A stretch of 64,000 nucleotides of DNA from contig PQAM01000010.1 in assembly GCA_003104975.1 (NCBI GenBank), positions 124,001-188,000 of the forward strand, in the 5' to 3' direction. This DNA is from Candidatus Methylomirabilota bacterium. GTDB lineage: Bacteria > Methylomirabilota > Methylomirabilia > Methylomirabilales > Methylomirabilaceae. Every line of letters starts with the position of its first letter. The stretch's first letter is position 1. The translations under genes and the position numbers were made by a program. Positions 35,992 to 51,512 of the stretch are shown piece by piece. The notes beneath the pieces are model-generated. The model did not search any database. It saw only the letters and a program-made list of their open reading frames with translations, and had not been told where the DNA came from.

Positions 35992-36668
35992 TGCGCGTCC
36001 GAACCCTTCATCCCTGGACCGTCACGCCGCAAGAGGCGATGGCAATCCAGCTTACGCTACGCTCCCAACTTCGTCTGTACGGGTCCGGACCGTTCGCGAC
36101 GGTTGCTGGGATCGATGTGGCCTATGACAAGCGTTCGAAGCTGATGTTTGCCGGCATCGTCGTCATGAACGGTGATGGTCGTGAAGAGCTGGATTGTGCG
36201 ACAGCGACAGCGACCGCAGAGTTTCCGTACATTCCCGGTCTGCTCTCGTTTCGGGAGATCCCGACGGTGGTCAAGGCCTGGAAACAGCTCAGGACAAGGC
36301 CGGACTGCCTGATCTGCGATGGTCACGGCCTCGCCCATCCCCGCCGCTTCGGACTTGCCTGCCATCTGGGGCTTTTGCTGGAGCGTCCCTCAATCGGATG
36401 TGCCAAGAGCCGTTTGGTGGGGACCTACCAGGAACCGCGGAAACGACGCGGGAGTATGGCGCCGCTGATGGATCAGGACGAGCAGATCGGCGTGGTCCTT
36501 CGGACGAAGGATGGTGTGACGCCGGTCTTTGTTTCACAGGGCGATCGAATCAGTCTGGATGCCGCCGTCCAGACGATACTCGCCACCTGCTGTGGCTATC
36601 GACTCCCAGAGCCTCAGCGGCGCGCCCATCTGCTGGTGACGAAGATGCGGCTAGCCGCCCAAGCTTAG
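35991..36668 (+). CDS. nfi: Endonuclease V (deoxyinosine repair)
   Basis: Cleaves DNA one bond 3' to deoxyinosine. 225 residues. Catalytic acids are seen in AGIDVAY (Asp), LSFREIP (Glu) and ICDGHGLAHPRRFGLACHLG (Asp), with the YIPGLLSFRE wedge motif. The start ATG shares a base with the thiD stop (TGATG), so they are coupled, probably only by convenience. Confidence 0.93.
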   Translation: MRVRTLHPWTVTPQEAMAIQLTLRSQLRLYGSGPFATVAGIDVAYDKRSKLMFAGIVVMNGDGREELDCATATATAEFPYIPGLLSFREIPTVVKAWKQLRTRPDCLICDGHGLAHPRRFGLACHLGLLLERPSIGCAKSRLVGTYQEPRKRRGSMAPLMDQDEQIGVVLRTKDGVTPVFVSQGDRISLDAAVQTILATCCGYRLPEPQRRAHLLVTKMRLAAQA

Positions 36669-36676
36669 GTAGATAG

Positions 36677-36692
36677 ACTGAAGGCTGAAGGA
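36677..36692. repeat. Heptamer-periodic repeat after nfi
   Basis: GACTGAAGGCTGAAGG: about two units of a 7-bp motif (CTGAAGG), 8 bp after the stop codon. The same motif occurs at 26138-26154 (GGCTGAAGGTTGAAGG) after another gene. Confidence 0.6.
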
Positions 36693-36784
36693 GCAGTGGG
36701 CCTCTTACTAAAAGACTTCAGTTTAAACTCCTAACCGCTGAAAGCTTGTTTCTGGGAACATTCGAGCGTAAAGGAGGAGATCAT

Positions 36785-37555
36785 ATGGAGTTGGGACTGC
36801 GTGGGAAGGTCGTAATAGTCACCGGCGGAAGCCGGGGGATCGGCAAGGCGATTGCGATGGGGTTTGCCGAGGAGGGGTGCCGGCTCAGCCTCTGTGGTCG
36901 CAGTCAGGCAACGCTGGACGACGTCGCAGACGTCATCAAGCCCTCGGGGGTGGAACTCCTGACGGTCCGCGCCGATCTCACCGAATCGCACGGGGCCGAG
37001 CAGTTGGTGCAGGCGACGCTGGATCGGTATGGCCGGATCGATGTGTTGGTGAACAACGTCGGCGGGTCGCGTCGCGGGGAGTTGGAGGCCCTCTCGGAGC
37101 AGGATTGGCGTGACATGTACGACCTGAACTTCTTTTCGACGCTCCGGACGGCTCGATTGGCGGTACCGGTCATGAAGCGACAAGGGGGAGGACGGATCAT
37201 CAACATCGCCTCGATCTGGGGGCGGGAGGCGGGCGGGGCGATGACCTATAACGCATCTAAGGCGGCGGTGATCAGCCTCTCCAAGGCGTTGGCCAGGGAG
37301 CTGGCCCCCCACAATATCCTGGTCAATAGTGTCGCGCCGGGCTCGACGCTCTTTCCGGGTGGCTCGTGGGACCGGCGGCAACGTGAGAATCCGGAGCAGA
37401 TCGCCGAGTTTGTCAAGAATGAATTGCCGCTGGGCCGATTCGGTCGTCCCGAGGAGGTCGCTGCTGTCGTCGTCTTCCTGGCATCCCAAAAGGCCAGCCT
37501 GGTGACCGGCGCGTGCGTCACCGTCGACGGCTGTCAGTCGCGCTCGCTCATCTGA
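36785..37555 (+). CDS. Short-chain dehydrogenase/reductase
   Basis: 256 residues from ATG 36785 (AAAGGAGGAG upstream). Classical SDR: cofactor loop TGGSRGIGKAI, NNVGG, catalytic Ser in NIASIWG and YNASK Tyr/Lys, then an N..VAPGSTLFPGGSW substrate region. Close to FabG-like or glucose/3-oxoacyl reductases; substrate not assignable. The residue after the cofactor strand (CGRSQ) favours NADP(H). Stands alone. Confidence 0.9.
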   Translation: MELGLRGKVVIVTGGSRGIGKAIAMGFAEEGCRLSLCGRSQATLDDVADVIKPSGVELLTVRADLTESHGAEQLVQATLDRYGRIDVLVNNVGGSRRGELEALSEQDWRDMYDLNFFSTLRTARLAVPVMKRQGGGRIINIASIWGREAGGAMTYNASKAAVISLSKALARELAPHNILVNSVAPGSTLFPGGSWDRRQRENPEQIAEFVKNELPLGRFGRPEEVAAVVVFLASQKASLVTGACVTVDGCQSRSLI

Positions 37556-37558
37556 CCG

Positions 37559-37581
37559 CTCGCGCCCAAATGTGCGCGAGT
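37559..37581. terminator. Hairpin between convergent genes
   Basis: CTCGCG and CGCGAG separated by about 10 bases, between the SDR stop (37555) and the vapC stop (37604). Positioned to end both transcripts. Confidence 0.4.
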
Positions 37582-37603: not shown

Positions 37604-38020
37604 TTACGGGAGTAACTCAAACGCCTTACAGTGGCGTGGACGTATGAGTGAAAAATCACGCCGGTCGGTCGTCAGAATGCGCGAGATTCTCAGACGCTCG
37701 GCCGTCGCTACGACGGATGCGTCAACAAAGCCGATTCGCGCAGCCGCATAGCGAGTAAGGAGTTCGAGGGTGCGTCGAAGGTCTTGGAGTGTAAGCTGTT
37801 CCAACGCCATCTCTCCGTTGATGAGGGACTGAACCAGCTTCCGCTCGGCCTCTGGTCCAAGGTGAGTGGTGAGTAGATAGGCAGCTTCCGGCAGTACGGC
37901 GACCGGGACGATAAGCTCACCATCTGAATGCTTGATAAAGCCGACAACACGAGCATGCCAGTCGTCATCCTGATCGGCCATCGCATAAAGGGGGCCAGTA
38001 TCAACGAGGATCGACGGCAT
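37604..38020 (-). CDS. vapC: VapC-type PIN-domain ribonuclease toxin
   Basis: 138 residues. PIN active-site acids are visible in ILVDTGPLYA (Asp7), VLPEAAYLL (Glu), FVDASVVATAE (Asp) and ILTTDRRDF (Asp). Cleaves RNA, usually tRNA or rRNA, when free of its antitoxin. The start overlaps the antitoxin stop by one base, the usual VapBC order. First element of the defence and mobile island. Confidence 0.9.
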   Translation of the reverse strand: MPSILVDTGPLYAMADQDDDWHARVVGFIKHSDGELIVPVAVLPEAAYLLTTHLGPEAERKLVQSLINGEMALEQLTLQDLRRTLELLTRYAAARIGFVDASVVATAERLRISRILTTDRRDFSLIRPRHCKAFELLP

Positions 38021-38250
38021 CAGCGGCCGAACCCCTTACCGAGCAGTTCCTCAGCGCGCTCGGCGACATCCTTTCGTCCGCTTCGACCAATTGCTATCAA
38101 TGAGAGACTGGAACGCCTGGGTCGTCGCCGCGAGACGTAGCCTTCGAGTGCGGTGCGGATGATTTCCGACAAGGTGACGTGCTCACGCTGTGCAATCTCG
38201 CGTAACTTTCTCAGTACGTCTTCGTCCGCAAAAATCGTTGTTCGTTTCAT
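38020..38250 (-). CDS. vapB: Ribbon-helix-helix antitoxin (VapB type)
   Basis: 76 residues: MKRTTIFADEDVLRKLREIA is a typical MetJ/Arc ribbon-helix-helix, followed by a basic tail (SRRRPRRSS) and an amphipathic segment for toxin contact. AAGGAGG precedes the ATG. It binds the partner PIN toxin and probably represses its own promoter. Confidence 0.88.
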   Translation of the reverse strand: MKRTTIFADEDVLRKLREIAQREHVTLSEIIRTALEGYVSRRRPRRSSLSLIAIGRSGRKDVAERAEELLGKGFGR

Positions 38251-38352: not shown

Positions 38353-38628
38353 GACTAACCTGAGCCGCACCGATCTCAGCACCACAATGATCGATGCCTT
38401 CTTGGTGAACCGACGAGGCGCGTAGGTCAGCAACTCGTTTTGAGAGCGTCAGATGCGGTTCGAGCGGTTTCGCTACCGAAAGGCTGAATAGGCTGACGTA
38501 GTTGCGCGTTTGCCGTAGTCTCGATTCGTGCAAATTCCTTGTTAACTGCCGGAAAAGATTATAGAGTTGGTGCCAGCTTCCAGGACGGCTGGTCGGGCTA
38601 GGCTGATCAGCTTACCTAATGGTTAGGC
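38353..38628 (+). repeat. ~276-bp repeat element A with attC-like ends
   Basis: Starts GACTAAC and ends GTTAGGC, an almost perfect inverted pair. Just inside, CGATCTCAGC faces GCTGATCAGC. The interior matches element B (40362-40643) at roughly four of five positions by eye, with small indels that destroy any shared reading frame, so it is non-coding. Further internal pairing exists (GCGTCAG with CTGACG). Its 3' end lies 31 bp before the next start codon, as does the end of element B. Confidence 0.75.
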
Positions 38629-38659
38629 CGCACTATCGACATATATCGGAAGGACGCAT

Positions 38660-39466
38660 ATGAACAGCAAGCTGGTTACAGGATATGAGGGCGTCAGCCA
38701 ATCTGAACCGGACATTGCCGGCGGAACCATCAAGATCGGGTTCATCGGGAAGGGGCATCCAATAAGCATCTTCACGTGGATCGGTGGTCGAACCGCCAAG
38801 TTGGACATTTGGGACAATCAGGGCAAGCTGCGGCAATGTGCAGGGGACACAGAGGAGGTGCATCTCTTTCCGGACACGGAAAGTCTTAGCAAACTCGAAA
38901 ACTGTACAGTCGGCTACATACATAACCACGGCGGTGTGCTGACGACTGGCGTACATAGCGACCGGGTAGATATTCGCGTTGCTGGCTTAGGGTTTCCCAA
39001 AGACGAGCACACAGGCCCCAGCGTCATCCTGTATGTCGGTTGCCAGACAGGGAAGGAAAAGTACGCAGCAGGTTTCGGCATCTTGCCTCAAAGCAGAACC
39101 AAGGTGTTTGTTGGTTTCAACTTTGATGCCACCATGGCCGGGTTCGGATCTGATTCCTTCCAGGAGGCCTTTTTTGAGGCTTTTGGTTCAGGATGTACTG
39201 TCGATGAGGCCTGCAGACGTGGATACGATGTCATCAAGAAGAAGGAGAGTCCCGTACCCTTCAAAGAGATGATCTCCATCATTGGGAACTCCCAGTTGAC
39301 CCTCCGCCAAGTGCGTGACAGTCTCGATAAGCGGGATATTTTTCACAAGAAGCAGCGGGAGGCTGACGGCAAGCATCTTTGCGGCGCCGCATGCAAGGAC
39401 TTCAAGAATTATGGCTTCTGCGATCGCCCCGTGAGGGGAGCAGGACAGATGTGCTGGCAGCATTAG
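38660..39466 (+). CDS. Caspase/CHAT-like protease-fold protein with Cys/His tail
   Basis: 268 residues, no signal peptide. The core looks like a caspase-HetF/CHAT fold: a His motif YIHNHGG (His88/His90), then 38 residues later a Cys motif ILYVGCQTG (Cys128), then KVFVGFN, FFEAFGSGC and VDEACRRGYDVI, which parallel the ACQTG...GA..V.G.L...A...F......G..V.EA strand-helix pattern of CHAT domains. The C-terminal 31 residues, CGAACKDFKNYGFC...MCWQH, resemble a small zinc-binding CxH-type tail. It sits between repeat elements A and B and beside toxin-antitoxin and restriction genes. A stress- or phage-triggered protease is plausible but inferred; partner and substrate are unknown. Confidence 0.65.
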   Translation: MNSKLVTGYEGVSQSEPDIAGGTIKIGFIGKGHPISIFTWIGGRTAKLDIWDNQGKLRQCAGDTEEVHLFPDTESLSKLENCTVGYIHNHGGVLTTGVHSDRVDIRVAGLGFPKDEHTGPSVILYVGCQTGKEKYAAGFGILPQSRTKVFVGFNFDATMAGFGSDSFQEAFFEAFGSGCTVDEACRRGYDVIKKKESPVPFKEMISIIGNSQLTLRQVRDSLDKRDIFHKKQREADGKHLCGAACKDFKNYGFCDRPVRGAGQMCWQH

Positions 39467-39627
39467 AGCGCCTAATAGCCGGGACTCCTGGGACACGATA
39501 CCGAATTCCGATCTGGTAACAAAGCGGGTTTCGGGTAAGAGGCTGCATTATAGGCTGGACCGCTGGCGTGCTTCGTGGTGCTGAGTCGGTGGGACACTGA
39601 AATCGCGTGCCATCAGGCGGATTGGCA

Positions 39628-39855
39628 TTACGATTTCAGGAGTCTGGTGAATTCAGCGTCGGTGAGATTGGCTTGTCGGAGCATTCGATGGAACAGGGCG
39701 GTCGGGATGTCTCGACCATGCTGATGGCTTACCCGCACCTGAAGAATCGTTCCATCCGCGAGAACCTTCTGCCAGGTTTCGTGTTTCTTCGTTCGAACTA
39801 ACAGAAATCCGGCCGCGTGTAGGACCCTTCGAAAATCAGCATAGGTAGGTGGCAT
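39628..39855 (-). CDS. hicA: HicA-family mRNA interferase toxin
   Basis: 75 residues with the small dsRBD-like HicA/YcfA fold: a start YADFRRVLHAAGFLLVRTKKH, then the conserved His-containing strand VRVSHQHGRDIP and a C-terminal helix. Cleaves mRNA when free. Located 3 bp after the HicB gene, on the strand opposite to its neighbours. Confidence 0.82.
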   Translation of the reverse strand: MPPTYADFRRVLHAAGFLLVRTKKHETWQKVLADGTILQVRVSHQHGRDIPTALFHRMLRQANLTDAEFTRLLKS

Positions 39856-39858
39856 CCG

Positions 39859-40143
39859 TCAGGTGAAGAGGGTCTTGACGTTTTCCTTCGATCCCATGGC
39901 ATGGATCGCCTGAATAAAGGGAGCATGGACCGCTCGATTGGGGCTTTTGCTGAATAGTTCATACTCTTCCATATATTGTTCCGCATAATCGATCGCCATC
40001 TCGATGAGATCCTCGAAAGCGGCCTCAGGCGTATCCCCTTCTGCGGCCAGATCAAGTTCCGGACAGACAATGACGTACTTGCCATCAGAAGGCTCAACAA
40101 TAGCCGTCAAGGCAGTGGCGCGCTCTTTGAGGATAATGGCCAT
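39859..40143 (-). CDS. hicB: HicB-family antitoxin
   Basis: 94 residues with the partial RNase H-like HicB fold: ALTAIVEPSDGKYVIVCPELDLAAEG followed by the DTPEAAFEDLIEMAIDYAEQY helix. The C-terminal extension (SPNRAVHAPFIQAIHAMGS) is not an obvious DNA-binding domain. Precedes the toxin gene, the order seen when the antitoxin autoregulates. Confidence 0.82.
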   Translation of the reverse strand: MAIILKERATALTAIVEPSDGKYVIVCPELDLAAEGDTPEAAFEDLIEMAIDYAEQYMEEYELFSKSPNRAVHAPFIQAIHAMGSKENVKTLFT

Positions 40144-40272
40144 CGGTCTTCCTCCCTCCCTCTTTTCTCGTTTGTATCAGAAAAGGAGAAGGAAAACAAG
40201 CGGGCGAAAGAAAGGGAGCCAGTCTATGCTTGGCTCATGTTTCCTTTTAGACGATCCCTGTCTCGAACGTTT

Positions 40273-40336
40273 GTCATTCCGGGCTTGACCCGGAATCCAG
40301 TGCCTTTCGGGATTCACGCTTTCACAAAAATGACGG
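40273..40336. repeat. Palindromic GTCATTCC repeat
   Basis: GTCATTCCGGGCTTGACCCG with an internal perfect stem (ATTCCGGG/CCCGGAAT), closing at AATGACGG. Related to the element at 59577-59649. A common extragenic repeat family. Confidence 0.65.
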
Positions 40337-40361
40337 CTATTGTTGCAGTTGATGGCGCTAC

Positions 40362-40643
40362 GTATAACAGCAACCTTTGGGGCCACACCGATCTCAGCGC
40401 GACGATGATCGATGCCTTCCGGTGAACCGACTAGGCGCGGGCGTCTGCAGCTCGTTTGAGAGCGTCAGATGTGGTTCGAGCGGTTCGCTACCGAAAGGCT
40501 GAATAGGCTGACGTGCCGGCGCGTTTGCCGTGGTCAGAATTCATGCAACTTCCTTGTTAACTGGCGGAAAAGATTATAGAGTTGGAACCAGCTTCCGGGA
40601 CGGCTGGTTGGGATAGGTTGATCAGGTTACATAATAGTTATGC
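40362..40643 (+). repeat. ~282-bp repeat element B with attC-like ends
   Basis: Starts GTATAAC and ends GTTATGC. Compared with element A, the terminal pair changed from CTAAC/GTTAG to ATAAC/GTTAT, a compensatory change that keeps the pairing. The core shares TCTCAGC, GAGAGCGTCAGATG, CTACCGAAAGGCTGAATAGG and AGATTATAGAGTTGG with element A. Its 3' end lies 33 bp before hsdR. Longer than known attC sites, so the relationship is uncertain. Confidence 0.75.
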
Positions 40644-40676
40644 CCTCTGACCACCATCGCTGAGACAGGAGCCTGA

Positions 40677-43217
40677 GTGTCCGAGAAGGAGGCCACAGCC
40701 CGCATCAAGATCAACAAGCTGCTCGAAGCTGCCGGCTGGCGCTTCTTTCCGAATGGCGACCAGCCTGCCAACATCCGGCTCGAACCGACTGTTGCCGTCA
40801 CGTCTACCGACCTGGACGCGCTCGGCGACAACTTCGAGAAGACCGGAAGAGGCTTCGTCGATTTCCTGCTGCTCGACGCCAAGGGCTTTCCGCTCATCGT
40901 CCTCGAGGCCAAGGCCGAGAACAAGAATCCGCTGGCCGCCAAGGAACAGGCTCGCAAGTACGCCCGCTCGCAGAACTGCCGATTCGTTATCCTCTCAAAT
41001 GGCAACCTGCACTATTTCTGGGACCTCGAGCGAGGCAACCCCTACATCATCACCTCGTTTCCGACGCCCGACTCCGTCATCGGCTACCAGAAGGTCACTC
41101 CTAACCCGCAGCGGCTGACCGCAGAGCAAGTGGGGGAGGACTATATCGTTCTCACCCGGCGCCCGAACTACCAATCCGAGGCTGCGTGGCGGAATGAAGC
41201 AGAACGCCACGGCTACATCCAAGCCAACAAGCTCCATTTCCTCCGGCCCTATCAACTCAAGGCCATTCACAGCCTTCAGGCCGCGGTCGGAGACGGTAAG
41301 GACCGCTTCCTCTTCGAGATGGCCACTGGCACCGGCAAGACCCTGACCGCTGCCGCCGTCGTTAAGCTCTTTCTTCGCTCGGGCAACGCTCGGCGCGTGC
41401 TTTTCCTTGTGGACCGCCTCGAACTGGAAGACCAGGCCAAGAAGGCTTTCGCTGCGCTGCTGTCCGCCGACTTTCAGACGGTCATCTACAAGGAAAACCG
41501 GGACGACTGGCGGCGCGCGGAGATCGTTGTCACCACGGTGCAGTCCCTGCTCTTCAACAACAAGTACCAGCGGCTCTTCTCGCCGACCGACTTCGATCTC
41601 GTGATCTCCGATGAAGCGCACCGCTCCATCGGCGGCAACGCGCGCGCCGTGTTCGACTACTTTATCGGTTACAAACTCGGCCTCACCGCGACGCCCCGCG
41701 ACTACCTCCGGCGGTTCGACAGCACGAACCCGGGAACACGCGACCCGCGCGAGGCCGAGCGTCGCTTGCTGCTCGACACCTACCGCACCTTCGGCTGCGA
41801 CAACAGCCAGCCGACCTTCCGCTACTCCCTGCTAGACGGCGTGAAGGAGGGCTACCTGATCAATCCCACAGTGGTAGACGCCCGCACTGAGATTACCACC
41901 GAGCTGCTGTCCGACAAGGGTTTCGTCGTCTCGTTTACAGACGACACCGGCGAGGATCAGCAGCAGGCATTCAAACAACGCGAATTCGAGAAGCGCTTCT
42001 TTGCCGACGCCACCAACCGGCTCTTCTGCAAGACGTTCCTCGAGAATGCCCTGCGCGACCCCGTCAGCGGCGAGGTCGGTAAGTCGATCATCTTTGCCGT
42101 CAGCCAGAACCACGCCGCCAAGCTGACGCAGATACTCAATCAGATGGCCGACCGCATGTACCCGGGCAAGTACCAGTCCGACTTTGCCGTGCAGGTCACC
42201 TCTCAGGTTCCCGACGCCCAGCAGTTCACCGTCAATTTCAGCAACAACAACCTGCTCGGCTCGGGCAACTTCATTCCCGCCTACAAGACCAGCAAGGCGC
42301 GCGTTTGCGTGACGGTCGGCATGATGACCACCGGCTATGACTGTACGGACATTCTCAACCTTGGCCTGTTCCGCCCGATCTTTTCACCCACCGACTTCAT
42401 CCAGATCAAGGGGCGCGGCACCCGCAAGCACAACTTCCTGGAGCAGCTCTTCGACGACAGCCGCAAGGACGGCGTGCAAGCTCCAATAAAGACCGCCTTC
42501 AAGCTCTTCGACTTCTTCGCCAACTGCGAATACTTCGAGGAGGAGTTCAACTACGACGAGGTGCTCAAGCTCCCGCGGCCAACCGGTAAGCCGACTGACG
42601 ATGGCGGGGGCGAAGGCCCTGTGGTCTACGAAGGCGCCTACGAGCACCTCGGCGCCGACATCCTGGCCTCGGTCAGGGAAGAGATCATCGGCGCCGAGGG
42701 CATGAAGATCGATCGTATGTTCTTCGAGAAGTTCGAGGACACTGTGCGCGCCGATAACACTATCGCTGCCGCCGTCGAGGCCGGGCAGTGGGACCGGGTG
42801 ATCGACTATGTGAATCGCGAGGTCTTCGACAAGCCCGAGGAGTATTACACCCTCGACAAGCTGCGTAAAGCCGCCGCCGTGGACCGCCGCCTGACCCTGC
42901 GCGAGATCCTGGAGAAGATCTTCGGCCTCATCCCGCGCTTTAAGTCCAAGGATGAGCTGCTGGAAGAGGAGTTCGCCAAGTTCGTCGCCGACTACAAGCC
43001 CGAAGAGGCTACGGCCATCCCGGCCATCAAGACCTACTTCAAGGCCTATGTCACCAGTGGCCGCATCCGCGACATCATCGAGAGCAAGCAGTTCACCGAT
43101 CTGGCGACCAATCCGGTGTTTTCCACCCGCGACTTCAAGGCCGTGCCGGCCAAGTACCGGGCGCTCATCCCGGAATACGTCAAGGACTACGTGTCCTTAA
43201 ACCAGTTCGCCGCCTGA
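40677..43217 (+). CDS. hsdR: Type I restriction enzyme, R (translocase/nuclease) subunit
   Basis: 846 residues from GTG 40677 (AGGAG upstream). The N-terminal nuclease domain has FVDFLLLDAKGFPLIVLEAKAEN, containing the D...ExK catalytic pattern. SF2 helicase domain with Walker A ATGTGKT (near 220), VISDEAHRSIGG (near 312) and LTATP. The C-terminal part with MMTTGYDCTDI and IQIKGRGTRKH covers motifs V-VI. Cleaves unmodified DNA after translocation with the M and S subunits encoded next. Confidence 0.95.
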   Translation: MSEKEATARIKINKLLEAAGWRFFPNGDQPANIRLEPTVAVTSTDLDALGDNFEKTGRGFVDFLLLDAKGFPLIVLEAKAENKNPLAAKEQARKYARSQNCRFVILSNGNLHYFWDLERGNPYIITSFPTPDSVIGYQKVTPNPQRLTAEQVGEDYIVLTRRPNYQSEAAWRNEAERHGYIQANKLHFLRPYQLKAIHSLQAAVGDGKDRFLFEMATGTGKTLTAAAVVKLFLRSGNARRVLFLVDRLELEDQAKKAFAALLSADFQTVIYKENRDDWRRAEIVVTTVQSLLFNNKYQRLFSPTDFDLVISDEAHRSIGGNARAVFDYFIGYKLGLTATPRDYLRRFDSTNPGTRDPREAERRLLLDTYRTFGCDNSQPTFRYSLLDGVKEGYLINPTVVDARTEITTELLSDKGFVVSFTDDTGEDQQQAFKQREFEKRFFADATNRLFCKTFLENALRDPVSGEVGKSIIFAVSQNHAAKLTQILNQMADRMYPGKYQSDFAVQVTSQVPDAQQFTVNFSNNNLLGSGNFIPAYKTSKARVCVTVGMMTTGYDCTDILNLGLFRPIFSPTDFIQIKGRGTRKHNFLEQLFDDSRKDGVQAPIKTAFKLFDFFANCEYFEEEFNYDEVLKLPRPTGKPTDDGGGEGPVVYEGAYEHLGADILASVREEIIGAEGMKIDRMFFEKFEDTVRADNTIAAAVEAGQWDRVIDYVNREVFDKPEEYYTLDKLRKAAAVDRRLTLREILEKIFGLIPRFKSKDELLEEEFAKFVADYKPEEATAIPAIKTYFKAYVTSGRIRDIIESKQFTDLATNPVFSTRDFKAVPAKYRALIPEYVKDYVSLNQFAA

Positions 43218-43227
43218 AGGAGACCGC

Positions 43228-44850
43228 GTGCTCGATACCGACACCAAACGCCGCATCGATACCGCCCGCGACATCCTCGTGGGTAAGGTTCCCGACCCTA
43301 AGAGCCAGGTCGAGCAGATCACCATTGCGCTCATCTACAAGTTCATGGACGACATGGACGCCGAGGCCGAGGAGCTGGGCGGCAAGCGCAAGTTCTTCGC
43401 CGGCGACTTCGCCCGCTACGGCTGGGCCAAGCTGATGCGCTCCGGACTGGGCGGCTTCGAGACCCTGAACCTCTACGCCGAGGCCATCGCCAAGATGCCG
43501 GAGAATCCCGGCATCCCGCCGCTCTTCCGCGACATCTTCAAGAACGCCTACCTGCCCTATCGCGACCCCGAGACGCTGCGCGCGTTTCTCAAGATCATCG
43601 ACGAGTTCACCTACGACCATTCCGAACGGCTGGGCGACGCCTTCGAGTATCTGCTCTCGGTGCTCGGCTCGCAGGGCGACGCCGGGCAGTTTCGCACCCC
43701 GCGGCACATCATCGACTTCATCGTTGCCATCGTCGACCCGAAGAAGCATGAGACTGTCCTCGACCCCGCCTGCGGGACCGCCGGGTTCCTGATCTCCTCC
43801 TACAAACACATCCTCAAGGCTAACACGGACGCTGAGGGGCACAACACGCTGACGCCAGATGACAAGGGCCGTCTCGCGCAGAACTTCAAGGGCTACGACA
43901 TCTCGCCGGATATGGTGCGCCTGTCGCTGGTGAACCTTTACCTGCACGGCTTCACCGATCCGCACATCTTCGAGTACGACACGCTCACCAGCCAGGAGCG
44001 CTGGAAAGAGCACGCCGACGTCATCCTTGCGAATCCACCCTTCATGTCGCCGAAGGGCGGCATTAAGCCGCACAACCGTTTCTCGGTGCAGTCCAAGCGC
44101 AGCGAAGTGCTATTCGTAGATTACATGGCCGAGCACCTCATGCCACAGGGCCGCGCCGGCATCATCGTGCCCGAGGGTATCATTTTCCAGAGCCAGACCG
44201 CCTATACCCAACTGCGCAAGATGCTGGTGGAGGAGTACCTCGTCGCCGTCGTCTCCCTGCCCGCCGGCGTTTTCAATCCCTACTCCGGCGTCAAGACCTC
44301 TATCCTGATCCTGGACAAGTCGCTCGCCCGGCAGGCACAGACCATCGCCTTCTTCAAGATCGAGAACGACGGCTTCGGCCTCGGCGCCCAGCGCCGCCCG
44401 ATCGATAGGGACGACCTGCCCCAGGCCCGCGCCGAGATCGCCGAGTACCTGCGCCGCCTGCGCGCCCGCGAGTCGATCGAGGACTTCCAGCCCACGTTCG
44501 GCCTCGTCGTATCGAAGGAGAGGATCGCGGGGAATGGCGAGTACAACCTGGCGGAGAGCGGTATCGGGAGAATGGAGCGAGAAGTCACGCTTTCCCGCTC
44601 GTACCACTCGGAGATGTGTGCACCATCAACCCAGCAAAGCGCGAAGCGCTCGCGTTGCCGCCCGACACCCTCGTCTCGTTTGTCCCAATGTCTGACCTTG
44701 GCGAGAATCGACTCGCCTTTATTGCAAAAGAGACCAAGCGGATTGACGAACTGGGAACGAGCTACACGTACTTCGCGGACGGCGACGTGCTCGTTGCAAA
44801 GGTCACCCCGTGCTTCGAGAATGGAAAGGCTGGAGTCGCCAGGGGCCTGA
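43228..44850 (+). CDS. hsdM: Type I restriction-modification M subunit, C-terminus frameshifted out of an M-S fusion
   Basis: N6-adenine methyltransferase of the type I complex. Start GTG with GAAGGAG upstream. Motif I is DPACGTAGFL (near residue 178) and motif IV NPPF (near 268). The protein is sensible to about residue 441 (44551, NGEYNLA). After that the frame gives 99 non-family residues, while the adjacent frame reads GERYRENGARSHAFPLVPLG and runs straight into HsdS. One missing base at about 44551 would explain this, so the ancestral gene was probably a single M-S fusion. Confidence 0.9.
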   Translation: MLDTDTKRRIDTARDILVGKVPDPKSQVEQITIALIYKFMDDMDAEAEELGGKRKFFAGDFARYGWAKLMRSGLGGFETLNLYAEAIAKMPENPGIPPLFRDIFKNAYLPYRDPETLRAFLKIIDEFTYDHSERLGDAFEYLLSVLGSQGDAGQFRTPRHIIDFIVAIVDPKKHETVLDPACGTAGFLISSYKHILKANTDAEGHNTLTPDDKGRLAQNFKGYDISPDMVRLSLVNLYLHGFTDPHIFEYDTLTSQERWKEHADVILANPPFMSPKGGIKPHNRFSVQSKRSEVLFVDYMAEHLMPQGRAGIIVPEGIIFQSQTAYTQLRKMLVEEYLVAVVSLPAGVFNPYSGVKTSILILDKSLARQAQTIAFFKIENDGFGLGAQRRPIDRDDLPQARAEIAEYLRRLRARESIEDFQPTFGLVVSKERIAGNGEYNLAESGIGRMEREVTLSRSYHSEMCAPSTQQSAKRSRCRPTPSSRLSQCLTLARIDSPLLQKRPSGLTNWERATRTSRTATCSLQRSPRASRMERLESPGA

Positions 44851-45740
44851 CCAACGGCGCGGGATTCGGATCAAGCGAGTTCTACATCCTGCGCCCAAGC
44901 GATCGGATTCTAGCCGAGTACGTCTACTTCTGCGTAACAAGCAGAGCTTTTCGCGAGCCGGCCATTGCGCAGATGACTGGGACGGGAGGACTTCAGCGGG
45001 TACCCAAAGGCTATGTCGAGCAGTTTCAGATTCCCCTGCCGCCGCTGGAGGTGCAGAAGGAGATCGTGGCGGAGATCGAGGGCTACCAGAAAGTCATCGA
45101 CGGCGCCCGCGCCGTCCTCGACCACTACCGCCCCCACATCCCCATCCACCCCGACTGGCCGATGGTGCCGCTCGAAGAAACGTGCGAAATCCAGCGCGGG
45201 AAATTCTCTCATCGTCCACGAAACGAGCCTCGATTTTACGGTGGGAAGTATCCCTTCATTCAAACAGGTGACATCGTCCGCGCCGGCGGAAGGAAGATCA
45301 CCTACACCCAGACTTTGAATGAGGAGGGGCTGTCCGTGAGCAAGTTATTCCAGCCGCCACTTGTGGTGATTACGATTGCCGCAAATATCGGCGACACTGC
45401 CGTTCTCGATTTTCCGTCCTGCTTTCCAGACAGCGTCGTTGGCCTCATCCCGAAGCAAGGAACCGATGCCCACTACTTGGAATTGGCCATGCGAACGAAG
45501 AAACAGCACCTGAACGACATCGCACCGCAAGCCGCCCAAAAAAACATCAACATCGAGATTCTGAAGACGGTAGAAATCCCGCTCCCACCCCTTGCTACGC
45601 AGCAACAAATCGTGGCCGAGATCGAAGCCGAACAAGCCCTTGTCGCCGCCAACCGCGAGCTGATGGCCCGCTTCGAGAAGAAGATCCAAGCCACCCTCGC
45701 GCGGGTATGGGGGGAGGAACCAAGCGTATGTACAAGGTAG
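44616..45740 (+). CDS. hsdS: Type I restriction-modification specificity (S) subunit
   Basis: Recognises the DNA target. Two target-recognition half-domains, each ending in the conserved helix start IPLPPLEVQKEIVAEIE (about 142-158) and IPLPPLATQQQIVAEIE (about 325-341). The GTG at 44616 is only the first possible start in this frame; the frame is open back to about 44551 and continues the HsdM protein (VPLGDVCTINPAK). Without frameshift repair it would lack the first few residues of the first recognition domain. Confidence 0.88.
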   Translation: MCTINPAKREALALPPDTLVSFVPMSDLGENRLAFIAKETKRIDELGTSYTYFADGDVLVAKVTPCFENGKAGVARGLTNGAGFGSSEFYILRPSDRILAEYVYFCVTSRAFREPAIAQMTGTGGLQRVPKGYVEQFQIPLPPLEVQKEIVAEIEGYQKVIDGARAVLDHYRPHIPIHPDWPMVPLEETCEIQRGKFSHRPRNEPRFYGGKYPFIQTGDIVRAGGRKITYTQTLNEEGLSVSKLFQPPLVVITIAANIGDTAVLDFPSCFPDSVVGLIPKQGTDAHYLELAMRTKKQHLNDIAPQAAQKNINIEILKTVEIPLPPLATQQQIVAEIEAEQALVAANRELMARFEKKIQATLARVWGEEPSVCTR

Positions 45741-49016: not shown

Positions 49017-51512
49017 CTAGAGGACGGGTTGGATATTCCAGATCTCCCGGGCGTATTCGGTGATGGCGCGGTCGCTGGAGAACTTTCCGATACGCGCCAC
49101 GTTCAGGATCGCCTTTGAGGCCCAACCGGCAGGATCTTCGAATGCCTGAGCCACCCGGTTCTGGGTGTCGATATACGACTCCAGATCGGCCAGGTGGAAG
49201 TACGGATCACCGCGATCCAGCACCGACTCCCCAACCCAGCGGAACAGACCGGGCTGGTTCGGGCAAAACAGGGTGGAGCCCAATACGTCCATGAGGCGTC
49301 GGATATGGGGGTTGCGATGATAATGGTCTCGAGGATGGTGCGAGCCGCGCTCCCGCATCTGCCTGGCCGCGTCGACCTGGAGTCCGAACAGAAAGATATT
49401 CTCCTCGCCCACCTCCTGCATGATCTCGACATTGGCCCCGTCGTAGGTGCCCACGATGGGGGCCCCGTTCATCGCGAACTTCATGCTGCCGGTTCCCGAC
49501 GCCTCGGTCCCGGCCATGGAGATCTGCTGGTTGACATCTGCGGCGGGAACGATCTGTTCCGCCAGGGAGACGCGATAGTCGGGCAGGAAGACCACCTTGA
49601 TCAGCCCTTTCACGCGGGGATCGTTATTGATGACCTGGCCGACGCTGGTGATCAGTTTAATGATCTGCTTGGCGGTCCAGTACCCCGGCGCTGCCTTCCC
49701 GGCAAAGATATAGACGCGAGGGCTCGACGGCTCAAGACCGTCCTCCACGATGCGCAGGTACTGGTGGACGATCTGCATGACATTGAGCAGTTGCCGTTTG
49801 TACTCGTGGATCCGTTTGACGTGGACATCGAATAGCGCGTCGGGACTGACGACGACCCGGCTGACGTCGTAGATAAGCCGCGCCAATCGCACCTTGTTGA
49901 CCCGCTTGATGGCCATAAATGCGTGCCGGAAGTCTCTATCCTGAATATGGGACTCGAGCGCCCTCAGCTTCCCCAGGTCGCCAATCCATCCGTTGCTGCC
50001 GATGGTATTCGTGATCAGATCGGCCAGCAGCGGGTTGGCTTGAAGCAGCCAGCGTCGCGGTGTCACGCCGTTCGTCTTGGTGCTGAATTTGTCCGGCCAG
50101 AGTTGAGCGAAATCGGGCGCCAAATAGGTTGTGACCAGTTGGGTGTGAAGCGTCGAGACGCCGTTGACGGCATGGCTGCCGACCAGGGCGAGGTTGACCA
50201 TCCGCACCTGCTTTGGCTCGCCCTCCTCAATCAGGGACATACGGCGGAGTCGCTCGTGGTCGCGCGGCCACATCGAGGCCACCTGCGCCAGGAAGCGGCG
50301 ATTGATCTCGTACATGATCTGCAGGTGACGCGGCAGAACGGATTCGAGGAGTGAGACCGACCATCTCTCCAGCGCCTCCGGCATCAGGGTGTGGTTGGTG
50401 TACGACAGTGTCGCCTGGGTGATCTCCCAAGCGGCTTCCCACGGTTGGGCGTGTTCGTCGACGAGCATCCGCATCAGTTCCGCAACGGCCAGGGCGGGAT
50501 GGGTGTCGTTGAGCTGTATGGCGACCTTGGAAGGGAACTGATCAAAGCTGGTGTGGCTCTTACTGTACCGTCGCATGATATCCCGCAGGGTGCAGGCCAC
50601 GAGGAGGTATTCCTGAAGCAGCCGCAGCTCCCGGCCCGCCTCGATCGAGTCGGCGGGGTAGAGGACCTTGGAGATCGTCTCCGACGCGATCTGCTGCTCG
50701 ACCGCCTTCAGGTAGTCCCCCTCATTAAAGATCTGCATATCAAACTCTTCGGATGATCGCGCCGAGTAGAGTCGCAAAACGTTGACCGTGTGCCCACCGT
50801 ATCCGACAATCGGCATATCGTGCGGAACGCCGATGATGATCTTCCAATCCATCCACATGGGGTTGTACCCCCCGGTCCGGTCGATGCCGTGTTCGACGCG
50901 CCCATAGACCGGTACGATGCAGGCCTCATCGGGACGCTCGATCTGCCAGGGGTTGCCGTGGGCCATCCAGTTGTCCGGCTTTTCTTTCTGATACCCGCCG
51001 TCGATAGCCTGTTTGAACAGCCCGTACTCATAGTTGATGCCGTATCCGTATCCCGGTATTCCCATGGTGGCCAGCGAATCGAGAAAGCAGGCCGCCAGGC
51101 GACCGAGACCGCCGTTTCCCAGCGCCGCTTCGGCCTCGCCCTCCAGCACTTCGTCGAGATCGACGCCCATCGTACGGAGCGCCTCCCGGCACGGATCCAG
51201 CATTCCCAGATTGCTCAGGTTGTTTCTCAGGGATTGACCCAGCAGAAACTCCATAGAGAGATAATGCAGCCGCTTGGGATCGGCCTGCTGATACCGATCC
51301 TCGGTGGCCAGCATCCGATCGATGAGGACGTCGCGGACGGCAAACGCCACGGCCATAAACAGCTCACGGCTGGAGCAGCGCTCCCATTTTTTCCCCAGCG
51401 AATACCGGGCATGATGGCGAATGGCGTCCTGAAAGGCGGAGACCGTGAGGGCGACATGGCGATACGTTCCCGACTCCGGACGCGGATCCTGCTCAAGCCT
51501 GCCGGTCGACAT
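49017..51512 (-). CDS. glgP: Glycogen/starch phosphorylase
   Basis: 831 residues, normal size. Releases glucose 1-phosphate from glycogen using PLP; the PLP Lys is in SGTGSMKFAMNGA. Other family motifs: ALGNGGLGRLAACFLDS, NDTHPALAVAELMR, TKTNGVTPRRWL and HVKRIHEYKRQLLN. The start lies 3 bp after the stop of the RsbW-like gene, making it the last gene of the signalling operon. No allosteric phosphorylation extension is visible at the N-terminus, which is short. Confidence 0.96.
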   Translation of the reverse strand: MSTGRLEQDPRPESGTYRHVALTVSAFQDAIRHHARYSLGKKWERCSSRELFMAVAFAVRDVLIDRMLATEDRYQQADPKRLHYLSMEFLLGQSLRNNLSNLGMLDPCREALRTMGVDLDEVLEGEAEAALGNGGLGRLAACFLDSLATMGIPGYGYGINYEYGLFKQAIDGGYQKEKPDNWMAHGNPWQIERPDEACIVPVYGRVEHGIDRTGGYNPMWMDWKIIIGVPHDMPIVGYGGHTVNVLRLYSARSSEEFDMQIFNEGDYLKAVEQQIASETISKVLYPADSIEAGRELRLLQEYLLVACTLRDIMRRYSKSHTSFDQFPSKVAIQLNDTHPALAVAELMRMLVDEHAQPWEAAWEITQATLSYTNHTLMPEALERWSVSLLESVLPRHLQIMYEINRRFLAQVASMWPRDHERLRRMSLIEEGEPKQVRMVNLALVGSHAVNGVSTLHTQLVTTYLAPDFAQLWPDKFSTKTNGVTPRRWLLQANPLLADLITNTIGSNGWIGDLGKLRALESHIQDRDFRHAFMAIKRVNKVRLARLIYDVSRVVVSPDALFDVHVKRIHEYKRQLLNVMQIVHQYLRIVEDGLEPSSPRVYIFAGKAAPGYWTAKQIIKLITSVGQVINNDPRVKGLIKVVFLPDYRVSLAEQIVPAADVNQQISMAGTEASGTGSMKFAMNGAPIVGTYDGANVEIMQEVGEENIFLFGLQVDAARQMRERGSHHPRDHYHRNPHIRRLMDVLGSTLFCPNQPGLFRWVGESVLDRGDPYFHLADLESYIDTQNRVAQAFEDPAGWASKAILNVARIGKFSSDRAITEYAREIWNIQPVL

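Follow-up and report, generated by a model that had tools for sequence, protein, structure and literature searches.

Two direct repeats in a stretch of 64,000 nucleotides from a Candidatus Methylomirabilota bacterium (the whole stretch is called the window here) are, judged from their sequence, integron sites of the attI type and not of the attC type, and copies of the same site are scattered through the genomes of the genus, often a short distance ahead of an open reading frame (ORF). One of the genes found in this position is an orphan whose 268-residue product is possibly a free-standing protease of the CHAT-like kind, carrying a zinc-finger-like tail. The gene itself is real and odd; the CHAT label is unproven. 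The features of the locus are collected in Table 1.

Table 1. Features of the locus, with positions counted from the first base of the window
Feature	Position	Strand	Remarks
SDR-family dehydrogenase, left hotspot anchor	36746..37555	+	
VapC (PIN; 37604-38020) and VapB-like RHH antitoxin (38020-38250)	37604..38250	-	block absent from G026
Repeat 1: decayed intI 3' end (about 38364-38410), then attI-type site (about 38483-38632), ending in GTTAGGC	38364..38632	+	ORF 38660-39466 begins 27 nt on
Orphan ORF of 268 aa, CHAT-like by motif	38660..39466	+	ATG start; H90 codon 38927-38929, C128 codon 39041-39043
Zinc-finger-like tail, residues 241-268 (C241, C245, C254, C265, H268)	39380..39463	+	predicted from sequence
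HicA-like toxin (39628-39855) and antitoxin (39859-40143)	39628..40143	-	older hotspot resident; present without ORF 38660-39466 in G025 and G026
Repeat 2: same element, core GTTATGC (one base off GTTRRRY)	40382..40647	+	hsdR begins 29 nt past model match
Type I restriction genes hsdR, hsdM, hsdS	40677..45740	+	
Putative glycogen phosphorylase (glgP), right hotspot anchor	49017..51512	-	read from sequence

The repeats in the window and across the genus

The earlier note on this DNA had described two repeats of attC-like character. They are real direct repeats, 86% identical to each other; their attC-like character was not borne out. The imperfect hairpin of the bottom strand and the R''/R' pairing of an attC site are absent from them: folding of the two window copies gave z values between -0.9 and +0.9 on either strand, only one of eight strand tests beat shuffled sequences while seven were no better, a copy at another locus (L031) reached a folding z of -2.35, and 16 repeat copies held no covariation worth naming. 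No attC was found at the 3' end of the orphan ORF, and nothing in the window matched Rfam or scanned as a tRNA. The first 45 bases or so of the repeats are instead the decayed C-terminus of an integron integrase, which reads GHTDLSATMIDAFR* in repeat 2 and GHRDVSTTMIYTHVLNRGG in the intact enzyme of the relative G021, and better-preserved integrase ends (about positions 270-315 of TIGR02249) lie directly upstream of the same site in several members of the genus. The conserved part of the repeat is a 150-bp site that ends in a core of the GTTRRRY type, beyond which the sequences diverge; the integrase part is not conserved. The repeats hence adjoin intI sequence, end in such a core (one base off in repeat 2), are unstructured and are followed by a gene, as expected of attI. 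In the integrons of Treponema, intI is transcribed toward attI (PMC3607928), and an unstructured site with integrase genes transcribed toward it therefore represents the same attI arrangement. The integrases of the genus share with this type an attI-like site at their 3' end; they differ from it in that no attC array was found at the window locus and in the many scattered copies of the site.

A sequence model of the site detected five copies in the source genome and 76 in 12 of the 15 genomes of the genus. Of the 27 sites inspected, 19 are followed within 60 nt by the start of a same-strand ORF of at least 99 aa, where random positions give 31% (P 3.6e-5); because three of the 19 carry the same HNH-like gene, they do not all count as independent. 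The starts of the ORFs cluster 11-59 nt past the core, and the genes concerned are diverse, including a restriction subunit, the HNH-like gene, a catalase-like gene and others (names assigned by reading the sequences only). The locus of the HNH-like gene has the order repeat, cargo, repeat in G025 and G034 and a single, hybrid-looking repeat in G033, from which it follows that cargo and repeat were gained or lost as a unit. Integron integrase genes are present at both ends of the window's contig (G000:C10:180-1168, locus L030, and G000:C10:673454-673819, locus L047); one is split over two frames and one is truncated, the source genome's own integrase being broken, and an intact IntI is found in G021. 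No description of an integron for this genus was found in the literature searched. In clinical class 1 and 2 integrons, delta-attI-type cassettes are functional, and the longest known keeps 244 nt of attI2 (PMC12901181). In these cassettes, too, the gene adjoins an attI-derived and not an attC site; in contrast, the putative recombination sites described here are dispersed over the chromosomes of one genus with the 3' end of intI attached.

Neighbours and history of the locus

The interval between the SDR gene and the putative glgP is a variable hotspot among the relatives compared. In G022 and G031, the SDR gene adjoins putative glgP directly, the locus being empty; in G026 it is followed directly by hicBA, and in G025 hicBA is followed directly by putative glgP. 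The empty and the hicBA-only relatives together indicate that two additions flank an older hicBA in the window, namely vapBC, repeat 1 and the orphan ORF on one side, and repeat 2 with hsdRMS on the other. The earlier note had taken the gene and a HicBA pair as one repeat-bounded unit next to a type I restriction system. The restriction neighbour is indeed there, as HsdR, HsdM and HsdS, and the HicBA pair holds as a HicA-like toxin with an antitoxin, with the qualification that the HicA match lies under the Pfam cut-off and the antitoxin matches Pfam PHD_like. The shared unit is not supported: in relatives the hotspot contains hicBA while both the gene and the repeats are missing, which speaks against a single cassette of gene and HicBA. 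G021 and the window share 22 nt upstream of hsdR, after which a nucleotidyltransferase-like ORF stands in G021 where the window has its repeat; since G021 possesses hsdR without the repeat, repeat 2 and hsdR joined separately.

Several further features of the region were recorded. Extra partial copies of the SDR gene's 3' end (window 37226-37560), 85-88% identical, occur in the hotspot of relatives (L100 4526-4820; L103 4616-4975 and 11134-11243; L108 18940-19272), as if each successive insertion had carried a replacement 3' end. The hsdM ORF (43228-44850) and the hsdS ORF (44616-45740) have 235 bases in common, and hsdM looks out of frame towards its end; a frameshift or a fused M-S gene is possible. 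A short intergenic stretch of the window (about 25-90 bp, within about 36665-36760) is a dispersed small repeat in the genomes of the genus, commonest in G022. Another stretch, at about 40260-40310 and thus just ahead of repeat 2 on the side of the antitoxin gene, is an inverted repeat (CATTCCGGGCTTGACCCGGAATCCAG) with matches at many loci across the genus, as expected of a small palindromic element in dispersed copies.

The orphan gene and its product

The existence of a 268-residue protein is supported by an ATG-initiated ORF with a ribosome-binding-site-like sequence (GGAAGGA), a coding-like GC by codon position (0.55/0.42/0.63) and a probability of only about 2e-4 that the frame is stop-free by chance. 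The GC content of the gene is 53%, compared with 60-64% in nearby housekeeping genes. The ORF is an orphan: searches of 94 genomes from the phylum turned up no homologue, and neither did IMG/VR viral contigs, plasmids, phages or scans of about 85,000 species using natural and motif-degenerate patterns; because such scans pick up only close relatives, more distant homologues may exist. Two weak matches, one in a phage and one in G021, were rejected as homologues, being antisense to an annotated CDS and to a histidine-kinase-like ORF, respectively.

All the residues named earlier for the caspase/CHAT-like motifs and the tail are present in the sequence as described, that is, H90 within YIHNHGG and C128 within VGCQTG, 38 residues apart, as well as C241, C245, C254, C265 and H268. 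HG (H90-G91) and C-x-T-G (C128-x-T130-G131) occur in the CHAT order, in a layout formed by a hydrophobic strand with HG, a hydrophobic strand with C-x-T-G, a strand and a helix of the type F..AF...G.TV.EA. This is the likeness to CHAT proteases (PF12770; e.g., TPR-CHAT/Csx29, PMC9729208, PMC10028731), in which HG is followed by C-x-[ST]-G, on hydrophobic strands, and then by the corresponding strand and helix pattern. The protein differs from them in having no detectable profile similarity, a His-to-Cys spacing of 38, where local CHATs mostly have 45-46, an additional Cys/His tail, and neither a TPR nor another partner domain. A pattern for the two motifs, composed after the protein had been seen and after a first reading that had scanned dozens of ORFs, catches 20 of 29 true CHAT domains and none of 624 other local ORFs, and is present in 25 of 20,000 shuffles of the protein (about 0.1%). 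The motif pair is thus more than composition by itself would produce, given the rarity of the pattern in shuffles and local ORFs; the pattern having been designed post hoc, the control is supportive and no proof.

Tests of membership beyond the motifs gave a different picture. Pfam, NCBIfam, PHROGs and the PADLOC defence models had no match for the protein, nor had a sequence search of the PDB. Against the reference set, composed of the 29 CHAT domains taken from the same phylum, neither an HMM, hhalign nor a position-specific matrix (under several gap settings) scored clearly above shuffled controls, so that neither Pfam nor these three methods returned a significant profile match to CHAT (PF12770). 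Once the CHAT sequences were trimmed to begin near the His motif, MAFFT placed H90 and C128 opposite the two dyad residues of CHAT, which indicates compatibility with CHAT only. Single-sequence AlphaFold produced poor models, with pLDDT 35 for the whole protein and 51 for residues 61-199, and the Foldseek matches obtained with them were noise, with no fold match. The caspase/CHAT assignment consequently retains a fitting motif order, and no profile, PDB or fold test backs membership.

From this evidence, the chances of a CHAT-like fold are evenly balanced. The protein might also adopt an unrelated or new fold, with a coincidental HG and C-x-T-G; it would then be a small enzyme of a different kind, or a binding protein, and bear a zinc-finger-like tail. 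We consider this reading a serious possibility while falling short of calling it probable. The uniformly negative CHAT profile and fold tests agree with it, as does the occurrence of the motif pattern in about one in a thousand shuffles when many ORFs have been inspected; on the other hand, the motifs agree with CHAT in their order and spacing, as do the strand and helix that follow them, and the single-sequence models are too poor to decide. The motif of JAB/MPN (JAMM) metallopeptidases is HxHP...S..D (HxHP-x(7)-S-x2-D), with a zinc-binding HxH, as in RadC-type proteins. HNHG-G together with S100 and D101/D104 superficially resembles it when the sequence is read, IHNHGG...S..D then being the zinc-binding motif of a metallopeptidase-like protein. 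Such an identity is highly improbable: P is missing after HxH and S at the expected spacing, no JAB family of Pfam matches, so that neither motif nor profile places the protein there, and C-x-T-G and the C-terminal helices would be left unexplained.

A Gordonia phage protein of the endonuclease VII type (MH651185.1 gp18) has several C..C..RP...C..H modules, and the tail stretch CDRPVRGAGQMCWQH resembles one of them, CDRPTRGAGDVCDSH (weak match, E 0.2), both having the form C-x-RP-x-RGAG-x2-C-x2-H; the tail differs in being a single module attached to another main domain. Separate searches with the tail returned weak zinc-finger resemblance only, and the module is plausibly a zinc finger.

Origin of the arrangement and possible function

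The comparisons show an integron-derived site with a conserved core, its position ahead of the ORF, and acquisition within the hotspot. In the joint reading, which as a whole is tentative, a lineage-specific gene was acquired behind an attI-derived site in the hotspot through capture by IntI, and its product is a CHAT-like effector. The part concerning attI-type capture is, by itself, reasonably probable. The ORF would have been inserted through recombination at the core by one of the genus's IntI enzymes, whose genes run toward attI, and its promoter may lie in the repeat. The product would be a free-standing CHAT-like (clan CD) cysteine protease with an H90/C128 dyad, whose Cys/His tail would bind zinc and help to find its target or trigger, as a sensor or targeting piece, and it would act as a toxin or an abortive-infection-type effector. 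The reading is favoured by the intI remnants immediately ahead of the site, both here and in relatives, by the spread of the site through the genus and the frequent ORF start soon after it, by the empty sites of relatives, the low GC of the ORF and the gain or loss as a unit at the HNH-like locus, and by the rarity of the motif pair in controls and the MAFFT pairing of both catalytic motifs with true CHAT domains. Against it stand the negative CHAT searches by profile, PDB sequence and fold, the failure to find homologues, the empty PADLOC result, the lack of an attC where the ORF ends and the broken frame of the source genome's integrase.

The repeats could also be passive scars left by an old integron end, whose dead copies serve as targets of homologous recombination only, with no capture by an integrase. 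This explanation, which is credible if somewhat doubtful, accounts well for the heavy decay of the intI parts and the broken integrase, for the wider hotspot with its duplicated SDR 3' ends in relatives, for the hybrid look of the single G033 repeat, as expected from homologous exchange, and for hsdR without a repeat in G021. It fits poorly with the conservation of the 150-bp site and its core, which the intI part does not share, with ORF starts clustered so closely after the core, and with the persistence of an intact IntI in G021.

A role in defence or abortive infection is plausible, as guessed from the neighbours only, which for this ORF are toxin-antitoxin and restriction genes. In the boldest form of the proposal, the genus would rely on dispersed copies of the intI 3' end with attI, and not on attC arrays, to capture and express genes, one of which would encode a new free-standing caspase-like protease, an abortive-infection effector with a zinc-finger trigger; taken together, this is unlikely. 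If the CHAT reading is true, a minimal, partner-free caspase-like enzyme would join the bacterial set, and it would help to ask how such proteases are switched in the absence of repeat or NTPase domains. The repeat is the better-supported part and the better lead, as it points to attI-derived sites standing before many captured genes in this genus.
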